A stretch of 31,965 nucleotides of DNA from a virus. Positions 2,584 through 9,448 of this stretch are shown here, one piece after another. A program made the position numbers and the translations under genes. Each line of letters opens with the position of its first letter. The stretch's first letter is position 1. A model generated the notes under the pieces. The model saw nothing but the letters and a program-made list of their open reading frames with translations. It was not told where the DNA came from and made no database searches. The stretch covers positions 1-31,965 of the IMG/VR virus record IMGVR_UViG_3300046782_000268, one strand, 5' to 3'.

Positions 2584-3101
2584 TGGCGACGGCGGACGTG
2601 ATCTCGTTACATGCGGTGGCGCCAGGTCTGCGCGCCAACAACACCAAGGCCGAGCTCGCCAAGGTCAAGGTCGGCTGGTGGTATCACGCCATCGGCGGCT
2701 ATCAATTCCGATGTCCGGAGCTGCGCTATGCGCCGCGGCTTGCGGACGTCGCCGACTACGCCGACAACGGTGACTTGTTTCTAGCGTGCTCCTGGCTGTT
2801 TGCCGATGAGATCCGTTGCGAGGTGAAGTGGCGGCCGGATCTCAGCTTCACCGATGCCGAGAGCTACGACTACGACACCGTGTTCTTTTCCAATGGCGAG
2901 GCAATGCAGCGCGCCGGCGACAGCGTCGCGGCCTACCATGTCGTCAACGCCGGCATGACCCACGCCGCCATCATCGGGCGACACACGCGGGCGGCCTGGG
3001 CCAAGACCACGCGCTACATGAAGAACAGCCAGCAGGAGGAGGAGGCCTGGGAGATCGACAAGAGGCTGGTGCCGTTCGTCTCGATCGGAGTGACAACATG
3101 A
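2583..3101 (+). CDS. Conserved-looking hypothetical protein in the replication operon
   Basis: 172 residues. The start is the ATG at 2583 that overlaps the preceding stop (TGATG); the frame is open further upstream but that part only shadows the nuclease gene. I recognise no family. The protein is rich in aromatic residues (GWWYHAIGGYQF, YDYDTVFFSNGEA), has no membrane segment, and carries a Lys/Glu-rich stretch (NSQQEEEAWEID) near the C-terminus. Its four-base overlap with the primase gene suggests coupled expression and a possible accessory role in replication, but nothing in the sequence gives a reaction. Confidence 0.7.
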   Translation: MATADVISLHAVAPGLRANNTKAELAKVKVGWWYHAIGGYQFRCPELRYAPRLADVADYADNGDLFLACSWLFADEIRCEVKWRPDLSFTDAESYDYDTVFFSNGEAMQRAGDSVAAYHVVNAGMTHAAIIGRHTRAAWAKTTRYMKNSQQEEEAWEIDKRLVPFVSIGVTT

Positions 3102-3976
3102 TCGCCGCCGAGCTCGCGCATGCGTTGGGTGCGGTCCGGTCGGGCCGGCAGTGGAAGTGCCGCTGCGTGGCACACGAAGATGCGGCGCCATCGATGATCA
3201 TTTTTGATGGGCGCGAGCGGATCCAGGTGCGCTGCCTGGCGGGCTGCGCGCAGGAGGATCTGATCGGCGCGCTGCGTGGGCGCGGGCTGTGGGCGCATGA
3301 TCGTTGGACGGATATTGAGAGAGATAGGCAGCCGCAACAAGCAAACATTTCACATGAAACGGATGCGCGGCGCTCGCGCAGCATGGCTCAGAGCTGGTTC
3401 GACCGCTCGATCCTGACCGCCGGCACGCTGGCGCAACGCTATCTGGAGGCCAGGGAGATCTGGTCGGTGGCGCGCGACATCGAGGACATCCGGTTCAATC
3501 CGCGGACCTGGCGCGAGCATGAGGTGGTGCCGGCGATCGTGGTGGCGATGCGCCACATCCGGGAGGGATCGATCGAGGCGGTGCAGCGGATCTTTCTGAC
3601 GCCGGATGGCGCCAAGGATGGCAAGCCGATGATGCTGGGGCCGGTGCGCGATGCCGCAATGATGCTGGAGCCGATCGGCGGCTTCCGTGAGCTGCACATC
3701 GCCGAAGGTCTGGAGACGGCGTTGTCGGTCATGGCGATGGATGCGAGCGGGCCGGTGTGGGCGCTCGGATCCTGCGGCGCGATCGAGCGGTTTGTGGTGC
3801 TCGACGATGTCGACCGCCTGGTGATCTGGGCCGACCATGATGAGGCAGGGCAGAAGGCGGCCGACATCTGTGTCGAACGCTGGGCCGAGGCCGGCCGGGC
3901 GACCCTGATCAGGACACCAAACCATGTGGGCTGGGATGCGGCAGACGTCTGGAGATGTCGCAATGCCAGAGCATGA
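3098..3976 (+). CDS. TOPRIM primase with N-terminal zinc finger
   Basis: 292 residues, starting at the ATG that overlaps the previous stop (ATGA). The N-terminus has a CHC2-like zinc-binding site, CRCVAHED (C21, C23, H26) and RCLAGC (C46, C50), in the form typical of phage primases. A basic, low-similarity linker follows (residues 70-110). The TOPRIM domain follows near 195-260, with the glutamate in LHIAEGLETAL (E203) and the metal-binding DxD in WADHDEAG (D246, D248). Such proteins synthesise RNA primers on single-stranded DNA. The next gene is a RepA-like helicase overlapping by 14 bases, so primase and helicase are probably made in step and act together at the phage fork. Confidence 0.87.
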   Translation: MIAAELAHALGAVRSGRQWKCRCVAHEDAAPSMIIFDGRERIQVRCLAGCAQEDLIGALRGRGLWAHDRWTDIERDRQPQQANISHETDARRSRSMAQSWFDRSILTAGTLAQRYLEAREIWSVARDIEDIRFNPRTWREHEVVPAIVVAMRHIREGSIEAVQRIFLTPDGAKDGKPMMLGPVRDAAMMLEPIGGFRELHIAEGLETALSVMAMDASGPVWALGSCGAIERFVVLDDVDRLVIWADHDEAGQKAADICVERWAEAGRATLIRTPNHVGWDAADVWRCRNARA

Positions 3977-5234
3977 CGACGAGGGATTTGCCGAGCGCGA
4001 GCGTGGCCGGGTGTTTCACCTCGACCGCGAGCTGGAGTTCTATTCGGTGGCGCAGCGCCACAAGCGGGGACTGTCGACGCGCGAGTGGCTGGTCGAGGAG
4101 ATGATCCCGCGGCGCGCGGTGGTGATCCTGTCGGGCTGGTCGAGCGTCGGCAAGACGCACATCGTCAACGACCTGATGTACTCTTGCGCCTTCGGCGAGC
4201 CGTTCGCCGGCTACCAGGTGATGCGGCGCTGCGGGTCTTTGATGTTTGCGGCCGAGGGCCAGGACGACGTGCGGCCGCGGTGGAACGTGCTCGACCACGC
4301 CAAGATCAAACCCTGGCAGGCGCAGCATCGCGAGCCGTTCGATTATTCGCAGATCATCTCCTGGACCGAGCAGATCCCCAGGCTCGACGCCGCAGATGCC
4401 TTCGTGGCCTATTGCGGCAAGATCGATCGGCTGAACGGCCTGCAGCGCCAGCTCTGCGGCCAGGGCTATCCCGGGCTCGGCCTGGTCGCGATCGACACCA
4501 TGACGGCGGCGGCCGACCTCAACGACGACCAGCACAATGCCGCCGGCAGCAACCAGAAGATCTTCAACATGCTGCATGCGCTGGCCGCGAAGTATGATTG
4601 TGCCGTGGTGGTGACCGACCATCTCGGCAAGGATGCCGCCAAGGGCACCAGGGGCAGCTCGGCCAAGGAGGCCTCGGCCGACGTGGTGCTGCAGGTGACC
4701 GGAACGGTCAATGATGATGGCATATGTTCCAACACCGCCATGACCATCAAGAAACTGCGCGGCGGGGTCGCCAACAAGCGGATCACGTTCTCGCTTGCTG
4801 ACGTCCGGATGCCGCTCGACGAGGAGGGCCGGCGCCAGGACGGCGTCGTGGTGAAGTGGGATGTGGCCTCGTCCCTGCTGCGCGGCGGCAAGGGCCCGGC
4901 CAAGCAGAATAAGCGCAATGCCTTCCTGATGCGGGCGATCGATGCGGCCCTGCTGGAGAGCCCGCCCAGTGCCGTGCTGTGGGTGCACATTGCCAGGGAT
5001 ATGAACTTCCGCGCGGTCGACGAGCGGACAGTTCTCGACCAGTACAAACTGTCCGCCCCTCCGAGCGGCCAGGACGAGGTCAAGCATCTGGAGAGCGTCC
5101 GCAAGAGCTACCGGCGCGCCATGTCGGACAGTTTGTTGTGCAGCGCGATCGGGCAAAAACGCCTGGAAGACGGTAGGGTTATGATTTGGCGGACAGATCA
5201 CAGACACCCGGACAGTTCTAAAGTGTCCGGGTAA
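3963..5234 (+). CDS. RepA-like replicative helicase (RecA-fold, AAA_25 type)
   Basis: 423 residues from the ATG at 3963 (GGAG eight bases upstream); an ATG at 3924 would overlap the primase more and has no better ribosome site. The Walker A motif is GWSSVGKT (58-65). A second core block is MFAAEGQDD (94-102). Walker B is LGLVAIDTM (172-180), and VVVTDHLGKD (215-224) followed by GTRGSS fits the sensor/DNA-contact segment of the hexameric RSF1010 RepA / DnaB-like group. The protein should unwind DNA for the primase encoded just upstream. The last 70 residues lie over the CGGACAGTT repeat cluster, which is read in more than one frame there, so that part of the coding sequence is constrained at the DNA level. 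Confidence 0.85.
   Translation: MPEHDDEGFAERERGRVFHLDRELEFYSVAQRHKRGLSTREWLVEEMIPRRAVVILSGWSSVGKTHIVNDLMYSCAFGEPFAGYQVMRRCGSLMFAAEGQDDVRPRWNVLDHAKIKPWQAQHREPFDYSQIISWTEQIPRLDAADAFVAYCGKIDRLNGLQRQLCGQGYPGLGLVAIDTMTAAADLNDDQHNAAGSNQKIFNMLHALAAKYDCAVVVTDHLGKDAAKGTRGSSAKEASADVVLQVTGTVNDDGICSNTAMTIKKLRGGVANKRITFSLADVRMPLDEEGRRQDGVVVKWDVASSLLRGGKGPAKQNKRNAFLMRAIDAALLESPPSAVLWVHIARDMNFRAVDERTVLDQYKLSAPPSGQDEVKHLESVRKSYRRAMSDSLLCSAIGQKRLEDGRVMIWRTDHRHPDSSKVSG
5206..5232. repeat. Hairpin 1: 9-bp perfect inverted repeat at the helicase stop codon
   Basis: ACCCGGACA at 5206-5214 pairs with TGTCCGGGT at 5224-5232 around a 9-base centre. It includes two of the CGGACAGTT units and ends inside the TAA stop of the helicase gene. 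No T-tract follows. Confidence 0.65.
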
Positions 5235-5251
5235 ATGAGGGTGGGTTCCCA

Positions 5252-5271
5252 TGTGTCGCCCCGACGACACA
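5252..5271. repeat. Hairpin 2: 7-bp perfect inverted repeat
   Basis: TGTGTCG at 5252-5258 pairs with CGACACA at 5265-5271 around a 6-base loop. Its arms are not the CGGACAGTT unit, so it is a separate element placed between hairpins 1 and 3. Confidence 0.55.
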
Positions 5272-5276
5272 AAACC

Positions 5277-5317
5277 GGACAGTTACCCCCCCTCTCTAAG
5301 GAGAGGGGGAACTGTCC
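5277..5317. repeat. Hairpin 3: 17-bp stem with 4-base loop
   Basis: GGACAGTT (5277-5284) pairs with AACTGTCC (5310-5317), and CCCCCTCTC (5288-5296) pairs with GAGAGGGGG (5301-5309). The loop is TAAG and the only interruption is a 3-base bulge at 5285-5287. It is the strongest hairpin in the window. No T-run follows, so it is not a classical intrinsic terminator; it lies 25 bases before the next start codon. Confidence 0.75.
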
Positions 5318-5341
5318 GCCAGCGAGACCGGAGGAGAGAGT

Positions 5342-5581
5342 ATGGCCAGAGGAGGATCAGGCAATGCCGCCTGGAAAGCAGCAGCGATCGCAAACCAAAT
5401 CCAACCAGGTCGCCGCAATAGGCGCCAGTGCACCGCCACCGCCAAAGGATCCGGTCAACGCTGCAGGAACATCGCCGTCTCCAATGTCGCCACCTGCCGG
5501 CTCCACGGAGGCAAAGGGCTCCTCACCCAACTCAAGATGCGGGAGCGCGCCAGAAGGCACGTCCGGATCACTGAGGGATGA
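5342..5581 (+). CDS. HGGXG-motif small zinc-finger-like protein
   Basis: 79 residues. The core CTATAKGSGQRC then CRLHGGKG gives a C-x(10)-C...C-x2-HGGxG pattern, which I recognise from small phage and prophage proteins of alphaproteobacteria usually called HGGXG-motif proteins; the cysteines and histidine probably bind a metal. The start at 5342 has GGAGGAG at 5330-5336, an excellent ribosome site. The N-terminus (residues 1-30) is basic. These proteins are often found near small-terminase-like genes, and the next gene here has that flavour. Function is not known. Three hairpins lie between it and the helicase gene, so its mRNA may be separately controlled. Confidence 0.75.
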   Translation: MARGGSGNAAWKAAAIANQIQPGRRNRRQCTATAKGSGQRCRNIAVSNVATCRLHGGKGLLTQLKMRERARRHVRITEG

Positions 5582-6442: not shown

Positions 6443-6685
6443 TCAGCTCTTATCTTTCTTGGGGATCCGCGTGCGCACGTCGGGCAGAGGGTGGGGGCGT
6501 GGAATAATTCGTGGTGTTACGCCGCGAATGATCGTCATGATTTCAGCGAGCTCACGCTGCAGGTCCTGCAGTTTTTTGTCTACTGGATCACTGCCGACAT
6601 AGAGGTGAGCGCAGCTGATAGCGAGCGTCAGTGCATTGGACTGCGCTTCGGTAAGTTGTTGTCCGTTGATGTTGATCTTAAACAT
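6443..6685 (-). CDS. Hypothetical small helical protein
   Basis: 80 residues, the last gene of the leftward operon. The N-terminus is KININGQQLTEAQSNALTLAISCAHLYV. A predicted coiled segment follows, DKKLQDLQRELAEIMTIIRGV (residues 37-57), then a Pro/Arg/Lys-rich tail ending KKDKS. I do not recognise a family. The tail and short coiled coil suggest a small oligomer that binds nucleic acid or a partner protein. The ribosome site is weak (AGCGAG). It is separated from the upstream gene by 33 bases. Confidence 0.6.
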   Translation of the reverse strand: MFKININGQQLTEAQSNALTLAISCAHLYVGSDPVDKKLQDLQRELAEIMTIIRGVTPRIIPRPHPLPDVRTRIPKKDKS

Positions 6686-6718
6686 GGCTTGCTCGCTTGT
6701 CTGGGATCGGGCGCCGGG

Positions 6719-7117
6719 TCATGGCTTCGGCTCCTCATCGGGTTTGCTTTCTGCCGATGAGAGCGCCAGCGCCTTCCTCGCCACCAATGCGGCTTCTTGG
6801 CATCGGTCGCAGCAACCGTTAGCGGCGATGCTTTCAAGCGCATTGCGCATTATCGCGCTGTCTTGCGTTGGTTGGGCAACAGCGCATGTGGGGCAGATTG
6901 CCGCCATCATGCCGTGGCCGCACCAGTTGGTCCCTCCGATCACTGGCGATGTCGCCGCTGCATCGGGGATAACCGGGAACGTGGTGTGGATAAGCATGTC
7001 AACCGTCTTGGTGGACGGATAATGCGCGGCCTCGGTCGCGTGCAGCCAAACGGCATTAACAAGCCGCCGCAAGTCGTCGTGAGTGCAGGCCCTCACGATG
7101 TCAGGAGATGATTGCAT
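6719..7117 (-). CDS. Hypothetical Cys/His-rich protein
   Basis: 132 residues from the ATG at 7117, which overlaps the upstream stop by one base (TGATG); the frame is open a little further upstream without a better start. Two cysteine clusters stand out: WCGHGMMAAICPTC (C66, H68, C75, C78) and CCDRC (C102, C103, C106), both likely to bind zinc. The N-terminal half is helical (DDLRRLVNAVWLHATEAAH) and the C-terminus is acidic and proline-rich. This could be a small zinc-ribbon adaptor. I do not recognise a family. Operon context with DNA-binding proteins suggests a regulatory or host-takeover role, by inference only. Confidence 0.65.
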   Translation of the reverse strand: MQSSPDIVRACTHDDLRRLVNAVWLHATEAAHYPSTKTVDMLIHTTFPVIPDAAATSPVIGGTNWCGHGMMAAICPTCAVAQPTQDSAIMRNALESIAANGCCDRCQEAALVARKALALSSAESKPDEEPKP

Positions 7118-7632
7118 CAGTCGGCATCCTCGTAGGCGAGCAAGAACGCCTGGATCCATTTCTGATCGACCCAGACGCCGCAGACGCCGTTGGCAATGCC
7201 GGCGGCGGCGATCGCCCGCCCGCGGCTCCAGGCCACGCCGGCCATCTCGATCGCCGGCTGCAGCGTCGGCTTGTTGCGGTCAATCTGATCGGCGGCGTCG
7301 GGCTCCGGTGTCTTCCAGACCGAGTTCGACGAGCGATCGATCCCGAAGGCGCCGGGTGTTGCGATCTCGGCCGGCTGCAGCGGGTGCGAATTATCAGGCG
7401 TCGACATCGCACTGTTCACCTCGCCCATGTTGCTGATGTTGGGGTCGTCGATCGCAAAATTGCGATATTGGCGGCGCAGCACGCGCCGGCCGCTCTCGGT
7501 GATTTCCAGGTAGCCCCAGCCATCGAAGGCGAGGCCGGCCTCGATCAGCTCGCGCGACACCACCGACAGGCAGTTGAACCTGGCGCCGCTTTCCAGCAGG
7601 CCGAGCGTCTCAAGGGCTACTTTTGTAAGCAT
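7117..7632 (-). CDS. Hypothetical protein with winged-helix-like N-terminus
   Basis: 171 residues with GGAGG six bases before the ATG. Residues 1-55 (TKVALETLGLLESG, VVSRELIEAGLAF, GYLEITESGRRVLRRQ) read like a winged-helix domain: helices followed by a GYLEITESGRR wing, where 'ITxxGRxxL' is common in phage winged-helix proteins. The middle is low-complexity (residues 70-125), and the C-terminus (GVAWSRGRAIAAAGIANGV, WVDQKWIQAFLLAYEDAD) is a separate unit. No family name is offered. It sits 13 bases after the 66-residue gene and overlaps the Cys-rich gene by one base. Confidence 0.62.
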   Translation of the reverse strand: MLTKVALETLGLLESGARFNCLSVVSRELIEAGLAFDGWGYLEITESGRRVLRRQYRNFAIDDPNISNMGEVNSAMSTPDNSHPLQPAEIATPGAFGIDRSSNSVWKTPEPDAADQIDRNKPTLQPAIEMAGVAWSRGRAIAAAGIANGVCGVWVDQKWIQAFLLAYEDAD

Positions 7633-7645
7633 GGTTGTCCTCCGA

Positions 7646-7846
7646 TCATTGCCGGTCCAGCTTGAGGCGGTCGGCGAGCTCGATGGCTTGCTTGATCCGC
7701 TCGAAGGCGCCGTGCTGATGGCCTTGCTCGCCGGCGATCCGCATGCATTCGATCACGGTCCTGGCGGCGACCATCACCGCAACGCTGGGCTCTTCGTCCT
7801 TCAGGATAGCCATCACCTCAGCTAGCAGCTCGTCCTCGATGCTCAT
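7646..7846 (-). CDS. Hypothetical small alpha-helical acidic protein
   Basis: 66 residues, nearly all predicted helix: SIEDELLAEVMAILKDEE, then SVAVMVAARTVIECMRIAGEQ, then AFERIKQAIELADRLKL. There is no membrane segment and no cysteine or histidine cluster. A CGGAG ribosome site lies six bases before the ATG, which overlaps the upstream HTH gene by four bases (ATGA). It may be a partner or antagonist of that regulator, but that rests only on the coupling. Confidence 0.6.
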   Translation of the reverse strand: MSIEDELLAEVMAILKDEEPSVAVMVAARTVIECMRIAGEQGHQHGAFERIKQAIELADRLKLDRQ

Positions 7847-8214
7847 GCGCGGCTCCGTTTTTTGGTTCGTGCCTCCTCGCGCTCGCGCAGTTTCTTGAGC
7901 CGCGCTTTATGCGCCTTGAACTGCTCGCGCGCCAGCGGCAGCTCGGTCGCGTAGTCAGGCGCCTGCTCGCGGTGCAGGCCATACTCGAAGCCCATCGCCG
8001 CGGCCATCTTGGCGAACGTCGCATGCTGGGGGCGGGCGGTCTTGCCGCCAAACATATTCTTGACGGTGGAGACTGATAAGCCGGCCAGCACGGCGAGATC
8101 GGTCTCGCGGAACAGCTTGCGCTCCTGTTGAAACAACGTCCGGAACTTGTCGATCTCCGGATCCTTGTCGACGAAATTGTAGCTCCTGGTGAGCCAACTT
8201 CCGTTGCTAGCCAT
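7843..8214 (-). CDS. XRE/Cro-type helix-turn-helix regulator
   Basis: 123 residues. The HTH is at about residues 35-80: FRETDLAVLAGLSVSTVKNM, then GGKTARPQHATFAKMAAAMG, the usual pattern of Cro/CI-like proteins in which the second helix reads DNA and later helices pack the fold. The C-terminal 40 residues are strongly basic (KAHKARLKKLREREEARTKK), which could add non-specific DNA contact. A GGAGG lies six bases before the ATG at 8214. It overlaps the double winged-helix gene upstream by eight bases. A role as early or lysogeny regulator is likely; with no integrase in view, lysogeny cannot be judged. Confidence 0.75.
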   Translation of the reverse strand: MASNGSWLTRSYNFVDKDPEIDKFRTLFQQERKLFRETDLAVLAGLSVSTVKNMFGGKTARPQHATFAKMAAAMGFEYGLHREQAPDYATELPLAREQFKAHKARLKKLREREEARTKKRSRA

Positions 8215-8857
8215 GGGCGGCCTCCGTCACCGCGTGATCGGCGCCGTTGCCCTTCTTCGGCTTTGCCGCCTTCTGCGGCAGGACATATTCCGAGTCGGAG
8301 ACCCGCTTGATCTGTTTCTTCTTCATCAACGCCGAGATCGTCGGCGAGACGCTGCCGCTGCCGCGGCCGTCGGCCTCAAACTGCTTTTTCATCCAGGCGG
8401 TGTTGAAGCGGCCATGGTTGCGGCTGGCGGCGCGCAGGATGAAGGTGTGGTTATCGACATCGCGATGCTTGGCCGCCGCCTTGGCCTTCTTCGGCTGAGA
8501 CTTGGCAGCGACCGTCGAATACTGACCCTCGCCGACCTTGCGGATCAGCTTGCGCTCGCGCAACACCCGCATCGCGGTGTAGCAAGAGCCGTCGGTGCGG
8601 CCGGCGGCGCGGAAATGCGTCACCGCCTCGATCGCGCGAAAATTGGGATGCTCGGCCATCCAGTCGATCAGGAAGTCTTCCGCCTTGACCGCGTGCGCCT
8701 GCTTCTTGTTGTAGGTGACGACGTCGGTGATCAGCTCCGGCTTGATGTCAAAGATCTCGCGCCGGGCGAGATCAGCGATCACCACGCCGAGCTGCTCCTG
8801 ACTGAGCCGGTTGATCACCAGGCGGAAATAGTCGACCGTCTCCGGTTGTTTGCGCAT
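8207..8857 (-). CDS. DNA-binding protein with two winged-helix-like repeats
   Basis: 216 residues. Two stretches have matching layout: residues 60-116 (EDFLIDWMAEHPNF ... SCYTAMRVLRERKLIRKVGEGQYSTV) and 136-193 (NHTFILRAASRNHGRFNTAW ... SPTISALMKKKQIKRVSDSEYVL). In each a helix pair leads to a T/S-rich recognition helix, then a 'K-I-R/K-R-V-x-x-x-x-Y' wing. They are joined by a Lys/Ala-rich linker (QPKKAKAAAKHR). This looks like a tandem winged-helix DNA binder, possibly binding two half-sites as a monomer. Its ribosome site is buried in a perfect hairpin (8861-8889), so translation is probably controlled. The specific family is unknown. Confidence 0.68.
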   Translation of the reverse strand: MRKQPETVDYFRLVINRLSQEQLGVVIADLARREIFDIKPELITDVVTYNKKQAHAVKAEDFLIDWMAEHPNFRAIEAVTHFRAAGRTDGSCYTAMRVLRERKLIRKVGEGQYSTVAAKSQPKKAKAAAKHRDVDNHTFILRAASRNHGRFNTAWMKKQFEADGRGSGSVSPTISALMKKKQIKRVSDSEYVLPQKAAKPKKGNGADHAVTEAAHG

Positions 8858-8860
8858 GCG

Positions 8861-8889
8861 AGCTCCTTCGGTTGTCCCACCAAGGAGCT
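8861..8889 (-). promoter_or_regulatory. Hairpin sequestering the ribosome binding site of the 8207-8857 gene
   Basis: In the leftward mRNA, AGCTCCTT (8889-8882) pairs with AAGGAGCT (8868-8861) over eight perfect base pairs. GGT and ACC can extend the stem by three more across one bulged G, leaving a GGGACA loop. The AAGGAG is the ribosome site of the gene whose ATG is at 8857, so the whole site is hidden when the stem forms. Confidence 0.6.
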
Positions 8890-8908
8890 AAGATAATCTG
8901 AGCTGTGG

Positions 8909-8927
8909 TGACAGGCAATGCCTGTCA
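8909..8927. promoter_or_regulatory. Perfect palindrome TGACAGGC-aat-GCCTGTCA
   Basis: Eight-base arms at 8909-8916 and 8920-8927 are separated by three bases, and the element includes the TGA stop of the HTH-like gene at 8925. It could be a regulator's operator placed in front of the double winged-helix gene, or a short RNA hairpin at the end of the HTH-like gene. No T-tract follows. It resembles TGACAGGGCCTGA at 1688-1700. Confidence 0.45.
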
Positions 8928-9248
8928 GGCCGCCAGCCGCGCCTTGCGCTGCCGAAAGTCCATCCAGATCACATTGCTGGCGTCAAAGTCGCAGTAGACC
9001 TTGCGGCGCTTTTTGCGGGCGGGGCGCTTGGCAAAGCCAAACAGATGGTCGGCCGCCACAAAGCCTTGGCCGGCCAGCTCATCCTGGATGATCAGATAAA
9101 ATTTCGCCGGGATTTTGCCATTGAACCGCCGCCAGTTGCAGACGTGGCTGGAGGATTGTCCGACCAGGATGCCGACCGCGGTCGGGCCGCCCAGCGTCTT
9201 CACCAGCGTGGTAAACGTCGCCAGCCGGCGCAGCGGAAGCCTCGTCAT
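8925..9248 (-). CDS. Small helix-turn-helix-like DNA-binding protein, paralogue of the protein at 1912-2151
   Basis: 107 residues from the ATG at 9248. An unusually complete ribosome site (AAGGAGGTGAT) ends six bases before it, which decides against the upstream in-frame ATG at 9278. The core LGGPTAVG (19-26), HVCNWRR (35-41), IPAKFYLIIQDEL (46-58) and AADHLFGF lines up with the 79-residue protein encoded at 1912. This copy adds a basic segment KRPARKKRRK (74-83) and a C-terminal VYCDFDASNVIWMDF strand pair. It is the first gene of the leftward early operon, as the other is first of the rightward one, so the two face each other. A paired regulatory role is inferred. Confidence 0.7.
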   Translation of the reverse strand: MTRLPLRRLATFTTLVKTLGGPTAVGILVGQSSSHVCNWRRFNGKIPAKFYLIIQDELAGQGFVAADHLFGFAKRPARKKRRKVYCDFDASNVIWMDFRQRKARLAA

Positions 9249-9448
9249 CTCAATCACCTCCTTCGCAGTGTCCCACAATGTGCATAAAAAATTAGCATGA
9301 GTCTGGCGCCGGACCTATCGCAATGGTTGCGCCTGATCACCGGCTTTTGACTTTTTGGGCCGATCGGTGCCATAAACAGCCGCTCGCAACGGCCCCGGCA
9401 GGCCCGGCCTTCGCTTCAGGCCACCCCCATTGAAGCCTTCTCGATGCG
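9249..9448. promoter_or_regulatory. Second divergent control region (leftward early, rightward late)
   Basis: This 200-base gap separates the leftward HTH-like gene from the rightward tail-fibre gene and must carry both promoters. It holds an A/T-rich patch at 9282-9296, the leader motif GTGGGACA on the minus strand (9276-9269), and a fair rightward promoter at 9347-9376. No gene is seen in it. The leftward promoter could not be assigned. Confidence 0.6.
9347..9376 (+). promoter_or_regulatory. Likely sigma70-type promoter for the late (tail/structural) genes
   Basis: TTGACT (9347-9352, five of six consensus bases) is followed after 18 bases by CATAAA (9371-9376, four of six). The expected start near 9383 lies about 65 bases before the first late gene. 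This is the best promoter match in the two control regions; spacing is one base over optimum. Confidence 0.45.

Follow-up and report, generated by a model that had tools for sequence, protein, structure and literature searches.

What is the role of a cluster of short repeats that runs across the 3′ end of a phage helicase gene, and which protein reads it? The stretch of DNA considered here (the window) comprises an entire virus record of 31,965 bases, in which a scan of both strands locates exact copies of CGGACAGTT at 5025..5033, 5125..5133, 5209..5217 and 5276..5284 on the plus strand and at 5047..5055 and 5310..5318 on the minus strand. Two further copies carry one mismatch each, CGGACAGAT at 5190..5198 (plus) and CGGACACTT at 5221..5229 (minus), giving an array of six exact and two one-mismatch copies within 294 bases. 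Copies one and two form an inverted pair with a spacer of 13 bases, copies five and six one with a spacer of 3 bases, and copies seven and eight one with a spacer of 25 bases. The helicase stop codon is at 5232-5234, with the sixth copy shortly before it, so that six copies lie inside the open reading frame (ORF) and two beyond it. These counts, spacers and orientations had been reported by a first-pass annotation made from the sequence alone, as had the absence of any further exact copy in the remainder of the record, and all of them held. Its statement that four copies are in the coding region failed, as it had counted only the plus strand. Its claim that the coding copies are read in two frames held for the four plus-strand copies, of which those at 5025 and 5190 share one frame and those at 5125 and 5209 another; the minus-strand copies at 5047 and 5221 are read in the frame of the latter pair. 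When one mismatch is allowed, CGGACAGTT has 14 matches in the record where 5.8 are expected, a number reached by none of 100 shuffles. Similarly, the 600 bases that surround the end of the helicase gene hold seven copies of a single 7-mer, and none of 202 other windows of the record exceeds six.

The annotation had also placed the array beside primase and helicase genes, which domain matches confirm. The helicase gene (3963..5234, plus strand, with an alternative ATG at 3924) matches Pfam AAA_25 (E 3.5e-23), and its product has the Walker A motif, the RecA-like ATPase core and the RecA/DnaB-like fold that define the hexameric helicases resembling RSF1010 RepA. RSF1010 RepA (1G8Y, E 5.2e-12) is the best solved relative of the helicase group alignment. 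Neither a DUF927 nor a D5/Primase_Cterm domain was found in the window helicase, AAA_25 alone being matched. The DnaG-like primase (3098..3976, plus strand) carries DUF7146 and Toprim_3 domains, and the PHROGs families of both proteins agree with these assignments. Upstream of the primase are a VRR-nuclease-like gene and a gene of unknown family. The first gene past the array (5342..5581, plus strand) encodes a small protein with a CRLHGGKG motif; it holds the same position in one close relative (L020) but is not constant in the class.

The first-pass annotation proposed an iteron origin at which an initiator loads the helicase, and suggested an inflection of cumulative GC skew as a check. That check gave only weak information. 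The cumulative skew of the record has no clear inflection at the array and peaks at approximately 6.5-7.5 kb, about 2 kb away, at a switch of coding strand. A block of minus-strand ORFs occupies 6443-9278 between plus-strand modules and the peak falls at its start, and therefore the skew probably reflects coding direction.

A search of viral contigs with the helicase protein found nothing, because the helicase diverges fast. We therefore used the primase as the search anchor, and this recovered relatives. All of the first four (L020 to L023) carry an array at the helicase end, built from different units: CCGGACA copies spanning the stop codon and shortly past it in L020, ACTGGAGC-type copies in L021 and L022, and GCCGACA copies in L023. 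Pairwise protein identity between these loci and the window is 47-63% for the primase, the better conserved of the two proteins among relatives, and 21-26% for the helicase, a contrast which suggests that helicase and array are exchanged as a unit. When 7-mers were counted de novo, the strongest array of most close relatives proved to be the one at the helicase 3′ end, and the words again differed from one relative to the next (CGGGACA, GTTGGTA, CTTCCGA, TGCGCCAA, TGAGCAA and others). The first-pass annotation had held that relatives with the same helicase and no repeats at this place would refute its proposal; the four relatives all have an array there, and so do 125 of the 180 loci of the wider survey described below.

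For that survey, bacterial genomes were searched with helicase alignments. Prophages came from 27 of the 398 genomes examined in the host order and from 73 of the 379 examined in the host family; searches outside this order were on too small a scale to contribute. An array was scored at non-redundant loci with a helicase match when at least five copies were present and the count beat shuffled sequence. By this measure arrays occur in 76 of 115 non-redundant loci in a first set and 49 of 74 in a later one. In the merged collection, drawn from phages, prophages and phage-plasmids, 125 of 180 non-redundant AAA_25 (RSF1010-RepA-like) loci have an unmistakable array of short repeats where the helicase gene ends, and the other 55 lack one by a looser cut. 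Of 345 control stretches taken from these loci, 10 passed the identical test. Both orientations are present in 116 of the 125 arrays, and in 62 a copy starts within the final 200 bases of the helicase gene. The unit itself varies widely (73 distinct top 7-mers), while place and layout persist. The window array is thus one case of a widespread and fast-changing class of repeats. Rhizobium phage 16-3, for example, has CGTGACA in 15 copies at the 3′ end of p101, one of them spanning the stop codon; other members are RHph_X2_25 (16 copies), Roseobacter phages CRP-811 and CRP-823 (11 copies of CTACAAA) and Escherichia coli phage SECphi18 (7 copies of GCGGGAC, approximately 170-290 bases 3′ of the stop codon). 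No clear array was seen at the helicase loci of Gordonia phage Gustav, Jerseyvirus, Microcystis phage Mae-JY30 or Mycobacterium phage Newman, nor at that of Gordonia phage Widow, where a weak match resembles chance. The open-access literature that we searched contains no description of arrays of this kind at RepA-like phage helicases, and an account in an older subscription journal remains possible.

Several other repeat arrangements were met during these searches. A DNA pattern scan for the inverted CGGACAGTT pair returned mostly chance matches, together with three loci that have real arrays beside other replication genes. In one GC-rich viral contig (L008, 3574-3832), nine copies of GGACAGT lie in the 5′ part of a DNA-polymerase-I-like gene, so that the core word of the window adjoins a different replication gene. 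In two related viral contigs (L015, 6826-7091, and L005, 4638-4903), five copies of GGACAGT directly follow a primase/helicase-like gene of a different type, placing the same word in an unrelated replication module. Elsewhere, about 20 head-to-tail copies of GCTGACC in a single orientation lie 5′ of a primase match (L061, 2679-2894), unlike the helicase-end arrays, and nine same-strand copies of ACCTGAGC (L047, 1097-1405) lie approximately 4 kb before the primase, separate from a CGGAACA array at the helicase end of that locus. In four loci (L183, L184, L186 and L193) the helicase ORF extends past the array, and the repeats are translated as short peptide repeats of the form GTYGTYGTNV or VTGVTSVTNV. 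The RepA-family helicase gene of pPNAP03 (L200, 4020-4420) is followed by a CCCCCTTTAGGGGG hairpin without a clear repeat array.

Between the seventh and eighth copies of the window array, direct reading of the letters reveals a C-run, a T-A-rich loop and a G-run that can form a hairpin (CCCCCCCTCTCTAAGGAGAGGGGG region, 5288..5309). In many related arrays, similarly, the copies lie around a C-run followed by a short A/T stretch and then a G-run, as in L021 (CACCCCTAAAGGGGTG). The simple pattern C3+(A/T)2-6G3+ is present in 58 of the 125 arrays, compared with 9 of the 55 loci without an array and 10 of 473 control stretches, and in 50 of the 58 arrays it is flanked by repeat copies on both sides. 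The window element is a longer form that falls outside this simple pattern and is the counterpart of the related elements. One could suppose that the hairpins serve in transcription termination or RNA processing and that the repeats merely supply their stems. In favour of this reading, the window hairpins fold strongly (z of -4.6, -6.3 and -7.5, the last for 5274-5320). Against it, a terminator scan found no hairpin with a U-tract at 5204-5320, most related arrays are rich in direct copies that are unable to form stems, and in four relatives a C-run stands on both sides of the A/T stretch (CCCCCCTATACCCCCC-type elements), which cannot pair. We have rejected this explanation, which these observations all but exclude. 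Because the elements of the four relatives cannot pair, the C-AT-G element more likely acts as DNA than as an RNA hairpin. That it is a melting or loading site is conceivable and no more than a guess.

To identify a candidate reader of the repeats, we considered the helicase itself, a possibility that the first-pass annotation did not foresee. The helicases of the window and of L020 were modelled with AlphaFold (mean pLDDT 80.8 and 83.2, respectively), and both models comprise a RecA-type core and a C-terminal domain. In the window this domain spans residues 317-414, numbered from the start at 3963 (4911..5204, plus strand). The order of its elements in both models, namely helix, one or more strands, helix, long helix and two strands, fits a winged helix. 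The predicted recognition helix, which includes the sequence ESVRKSYRRAM, corresponds to residues 372-392 (5076..5138, plus strand), with the codon for Lys381 at 5103-5105. A fold search with the whole model is dominated by RecA, DnaB and KaiC cores, and a sequence comparison of the C-terminal domain alone with solved structures returned nothing meaningful. Since the ATPase core swamps the fold search, the assignment as a winged helix rests on predicted topology and not on a matched structure.

If the C-terminal domain reads the repeats, the two might be expected to vary together, and we asked how far the resemblance of units between loci follows that of the C-terminal domain or that of the ATPase. 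As a safeguard against circularity, units were taken solely from beyond the stop codon and the last 20 residues of the protein were dropped. Across 53 loci, unit similarity is related to the C-terminal domain given the ATPase (partial r 0.36, p=0.0003) and is not significantly related to the ATPase given the C-terminal domain (partial r 0.05, p=0.14). After dereplication the corresponding values are 0.35 and -0.01, and within one helicase family they are 0.45 and -0.12; an earlier run without the safeguards gave 0.35 and 0.07. These computations show that the unit tracks the C-terminal domain and not the ATPase, with the reservation that the permutation and Fisher tests used in this work leave shared ancestry incompletely removed.

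A second line of evidence comes from single residues. In loci whose units end in ACA, we placed the long helix by a fixed scoring rule and scored the residue two before its conserved aromatic. Three prophages (L183, L186 and L193) have CGGGACA and a fourth (L184) has CGTGACA, and their C-terminal domains are nearly identical; the sole consistent change in the recognition helix is from Lys in the three to Gln in the fourth. The same switch separates L119 (CGGGACA, Lys) from L121 (CGTGACA, Gln). In the first set after dereplication, Lys or Arg occupies the scored position in 15 of 16 GGACA loci and 2 of 9 TGACA loci (Fisher p=0.0005). Loci fetched later and scored with the same code gave 15 of 15 and 0 of 3, respectively (p=0.001), and with dereplication Lys or Arg accompanies GGACA in 12 of 12 (p=0.002). 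Glu accompanies CGTCACA in all three such loci of the later set and in one earlier locus (L113), and Thr accompanies CGACA units in two loci (L174 and L259). The window conforms to the rule, having Lys381 at the scored position of its helix (RKSYRR) and GGACA in its unit. Exceptions are L126, L129 and L130 (Lys with TGACA), L166 (Gln with GGACA), and L232 and L247, which have neither residue. Pairings of Lys with G, Gln with A and Glu with C are usual in protein-base contacts. One residue of the C-terminal domain therefore predicts part of the repeat sequence, a result shown by computation, with exceptions and with ancestry only partly controlled. A candidate rule that Met marks units with A before ACA, suggested by L125 and L128, was not borne out in later loci.

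We infer from the covariation and the residue rule, in the absence of binding data, that the helicase C-terminal domain probably binds the repeats. Alternatively, a separate DNA-binding protein, a small helix-turn-helix (HTH) protein or some other, could read the array and load the helicase, in the manner of RepC in RSF1010 or O in lambda. This explanation is supported by the dependence of RSF1010 RepA, the closest solved relative, on RepC (PMC8965321) and by the presence of an HTH-like gene at 1912-2151. It is opposed by the finding that the unit follows the helicase C-terminal domain and a single residue therein. Moreover, the 279-residue RSF1010 RepA is matched in the ATPase core alone, and these helicases have about 100 extra C-terminal residues; no conserved partner gene except the primase was seen around the arrays. 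No RepC-like domain was found among the ten window proteins scanned. We regard a separate initiator as very unlikely. For the alternative offered by the first-pass annotation, an operator array for an HTH protein encoded elsewhere, we found nothing in support.

We therefore return to the helicase as the putative reader and consider what its binding might accomplish. The module is present on complete circular phage-plasmids. Methylobacterium currus unnamed4 carries a primase, a helicase, eight copies of CGCAACA and ParA, and pMRAD08 carries a helicase, six copies of CCGGACA and ParA; no known Rep domain was found among the 18 and 10 proteins scanned from them, respectively, which do not cover all of their proteins. 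Arrays are also present on Caenibius p1, on Klebsiella pneumoniae pKp_Goe_795-4 and on a plasmid of X. dioxanivorans, the last two of which could be prophage-derived circles or carriers of other replicons. As a separate observation, the Methylobacterium currus phage-plasmid (L196, 24772-26482) has a DarT-family ADP-ribosyltransferase gene beside a macro-domain gene, resembling a DarTG pair.

The main rival to an origin is that the helicase C-terminal domain binds the array as an autoregulatory or copy-control site. The covariation and the residue rule indicate a probable reader and not its purpose, and the inverted pairs and hairpins could act on the gene 3′ of the array. Nevertheless, the array occupies the 3′ end of the gene, and no promoter-like site was found in 4900-5500. 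The genes 3′ of the array differ between loci, and as many as 16 sites over several hundred bases would be large for an operator. Among the proteins scanned from the circular phage-plasmids, in addition, no further replication protein was recognised. Autoregulation is for these reasons unlikely. The more probable interpretation is that the array is the phage replication origin and that its iterons are bound by the C-terminal winged helix of the AAA_25 helicase encoded there. Computation establishes the array, the constancy of its place among relatives, its connection with the C-terminal domain and the residue-base rule; binding, self-loading, the function of the hairpin and origin activity are inferred. 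The iteron origin put forward by the first-pass annotation is supported to this extent.

By analogy with known systems, several helicase subunits would bind CGGACAGTT sites in both orientations through the recognition helix at residues 372-392. The helicase would then assemble on both sides of the C-run/G-run hairpin and the DNA would open, after which the neighbouring Toprim primase would prime synthesis and host polymerase would complete the replisome.

The nearest precedent is the Rep protein of the staphylococcal pathogenicity islands (SaPI), whose C-terminal domain recognises iterons directly 3′ of its own gene, and Cch2 of SCCmec appears to recognise iterons as SaPI Rep does (PMC7581432). 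Both systems resemble the window class in having iterons at the 3′ end of the helicase gene and a primase nearby. Their helicases belong to the DUF927 or D5/Primase_Cterm families (PMC7581432), whereas the window helicase is an AAA_25 protein with a RecA/DnaB-type core, and unlike the SaPI origin half of the AAA_25 arrays (62 of 125) begin inside the coding end. The window array is likely to be a SaPI-Rep-type origin that belongs to another helicase family, a reading made by analogy and with binding inferred; the helicase may work like SaPI Rep without being classed as one. RSF1010 RepA shares the ATPase core and is loaded at an oriV melted by RepC (PMC8965321). In the window class, by contrast, recognition is proposed to occur via the added C-terminal winged helix, and no RepC-like protein was identified among those scanned. 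Initiators of iteron plasmids are a dedicated Rep family encoded beside the iterons, and none was found among the window replication genes or the scanned phage-plasmid proteins. The alpha protein of phage P4, which acts at ori and crr, combines helicase, primase and C-terminal origin recognition in one polypeptide; its helicase core is of the AAA+ SF3 type, unlike AAA_25, and its primase is part of the same protein. Origin repeats also lie inside the gene of their own binder in the case of the lactococcal Tuc2009 and TP901-1 replisome organisers (PMC8965321), and the lambda O gene contains the origin repeats that O binds. In these phages the binder is an initiator without helicase activity, whereas in the window class the proposed binder is the helicase.

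A bolder reading, towards which we lean without firm commitment, is that many phages, prophages and phage-plasmids encode RepA-type helicases of the RecA fold that act as self-recognising initiators, each with a C-terminal winged helix that reads iterons at the end of its own gene. Specificity for the two bases before ACA would be set by Lys or Arg for GG, Gln for TG, Glu for TC and, tentatively, Thr for CG, and origin and reader would constitute one swappable unit. For most phages with a RepA-like helicase, neither has an origin been mapped nor an initiator named. If the model is correct, the sequence would supply both, with the array at the end of the helicase gene as the origin and the C-terminal domain of the helicase as the initiator. 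It would also explain how phage-plasmids without a recognised Rep protein replicate, and it would provide many natural helicase-iteron pairs, some of them almost identical, for studying how winged-helix specificity changes. The model is open to test in laboratory strains with phages such as SECphi18 of E. coli and Rhizobium phage 16-3. Self-recognising helicase initiators would then extend from the families represented by SaPI Rep to a RecA-fold family.
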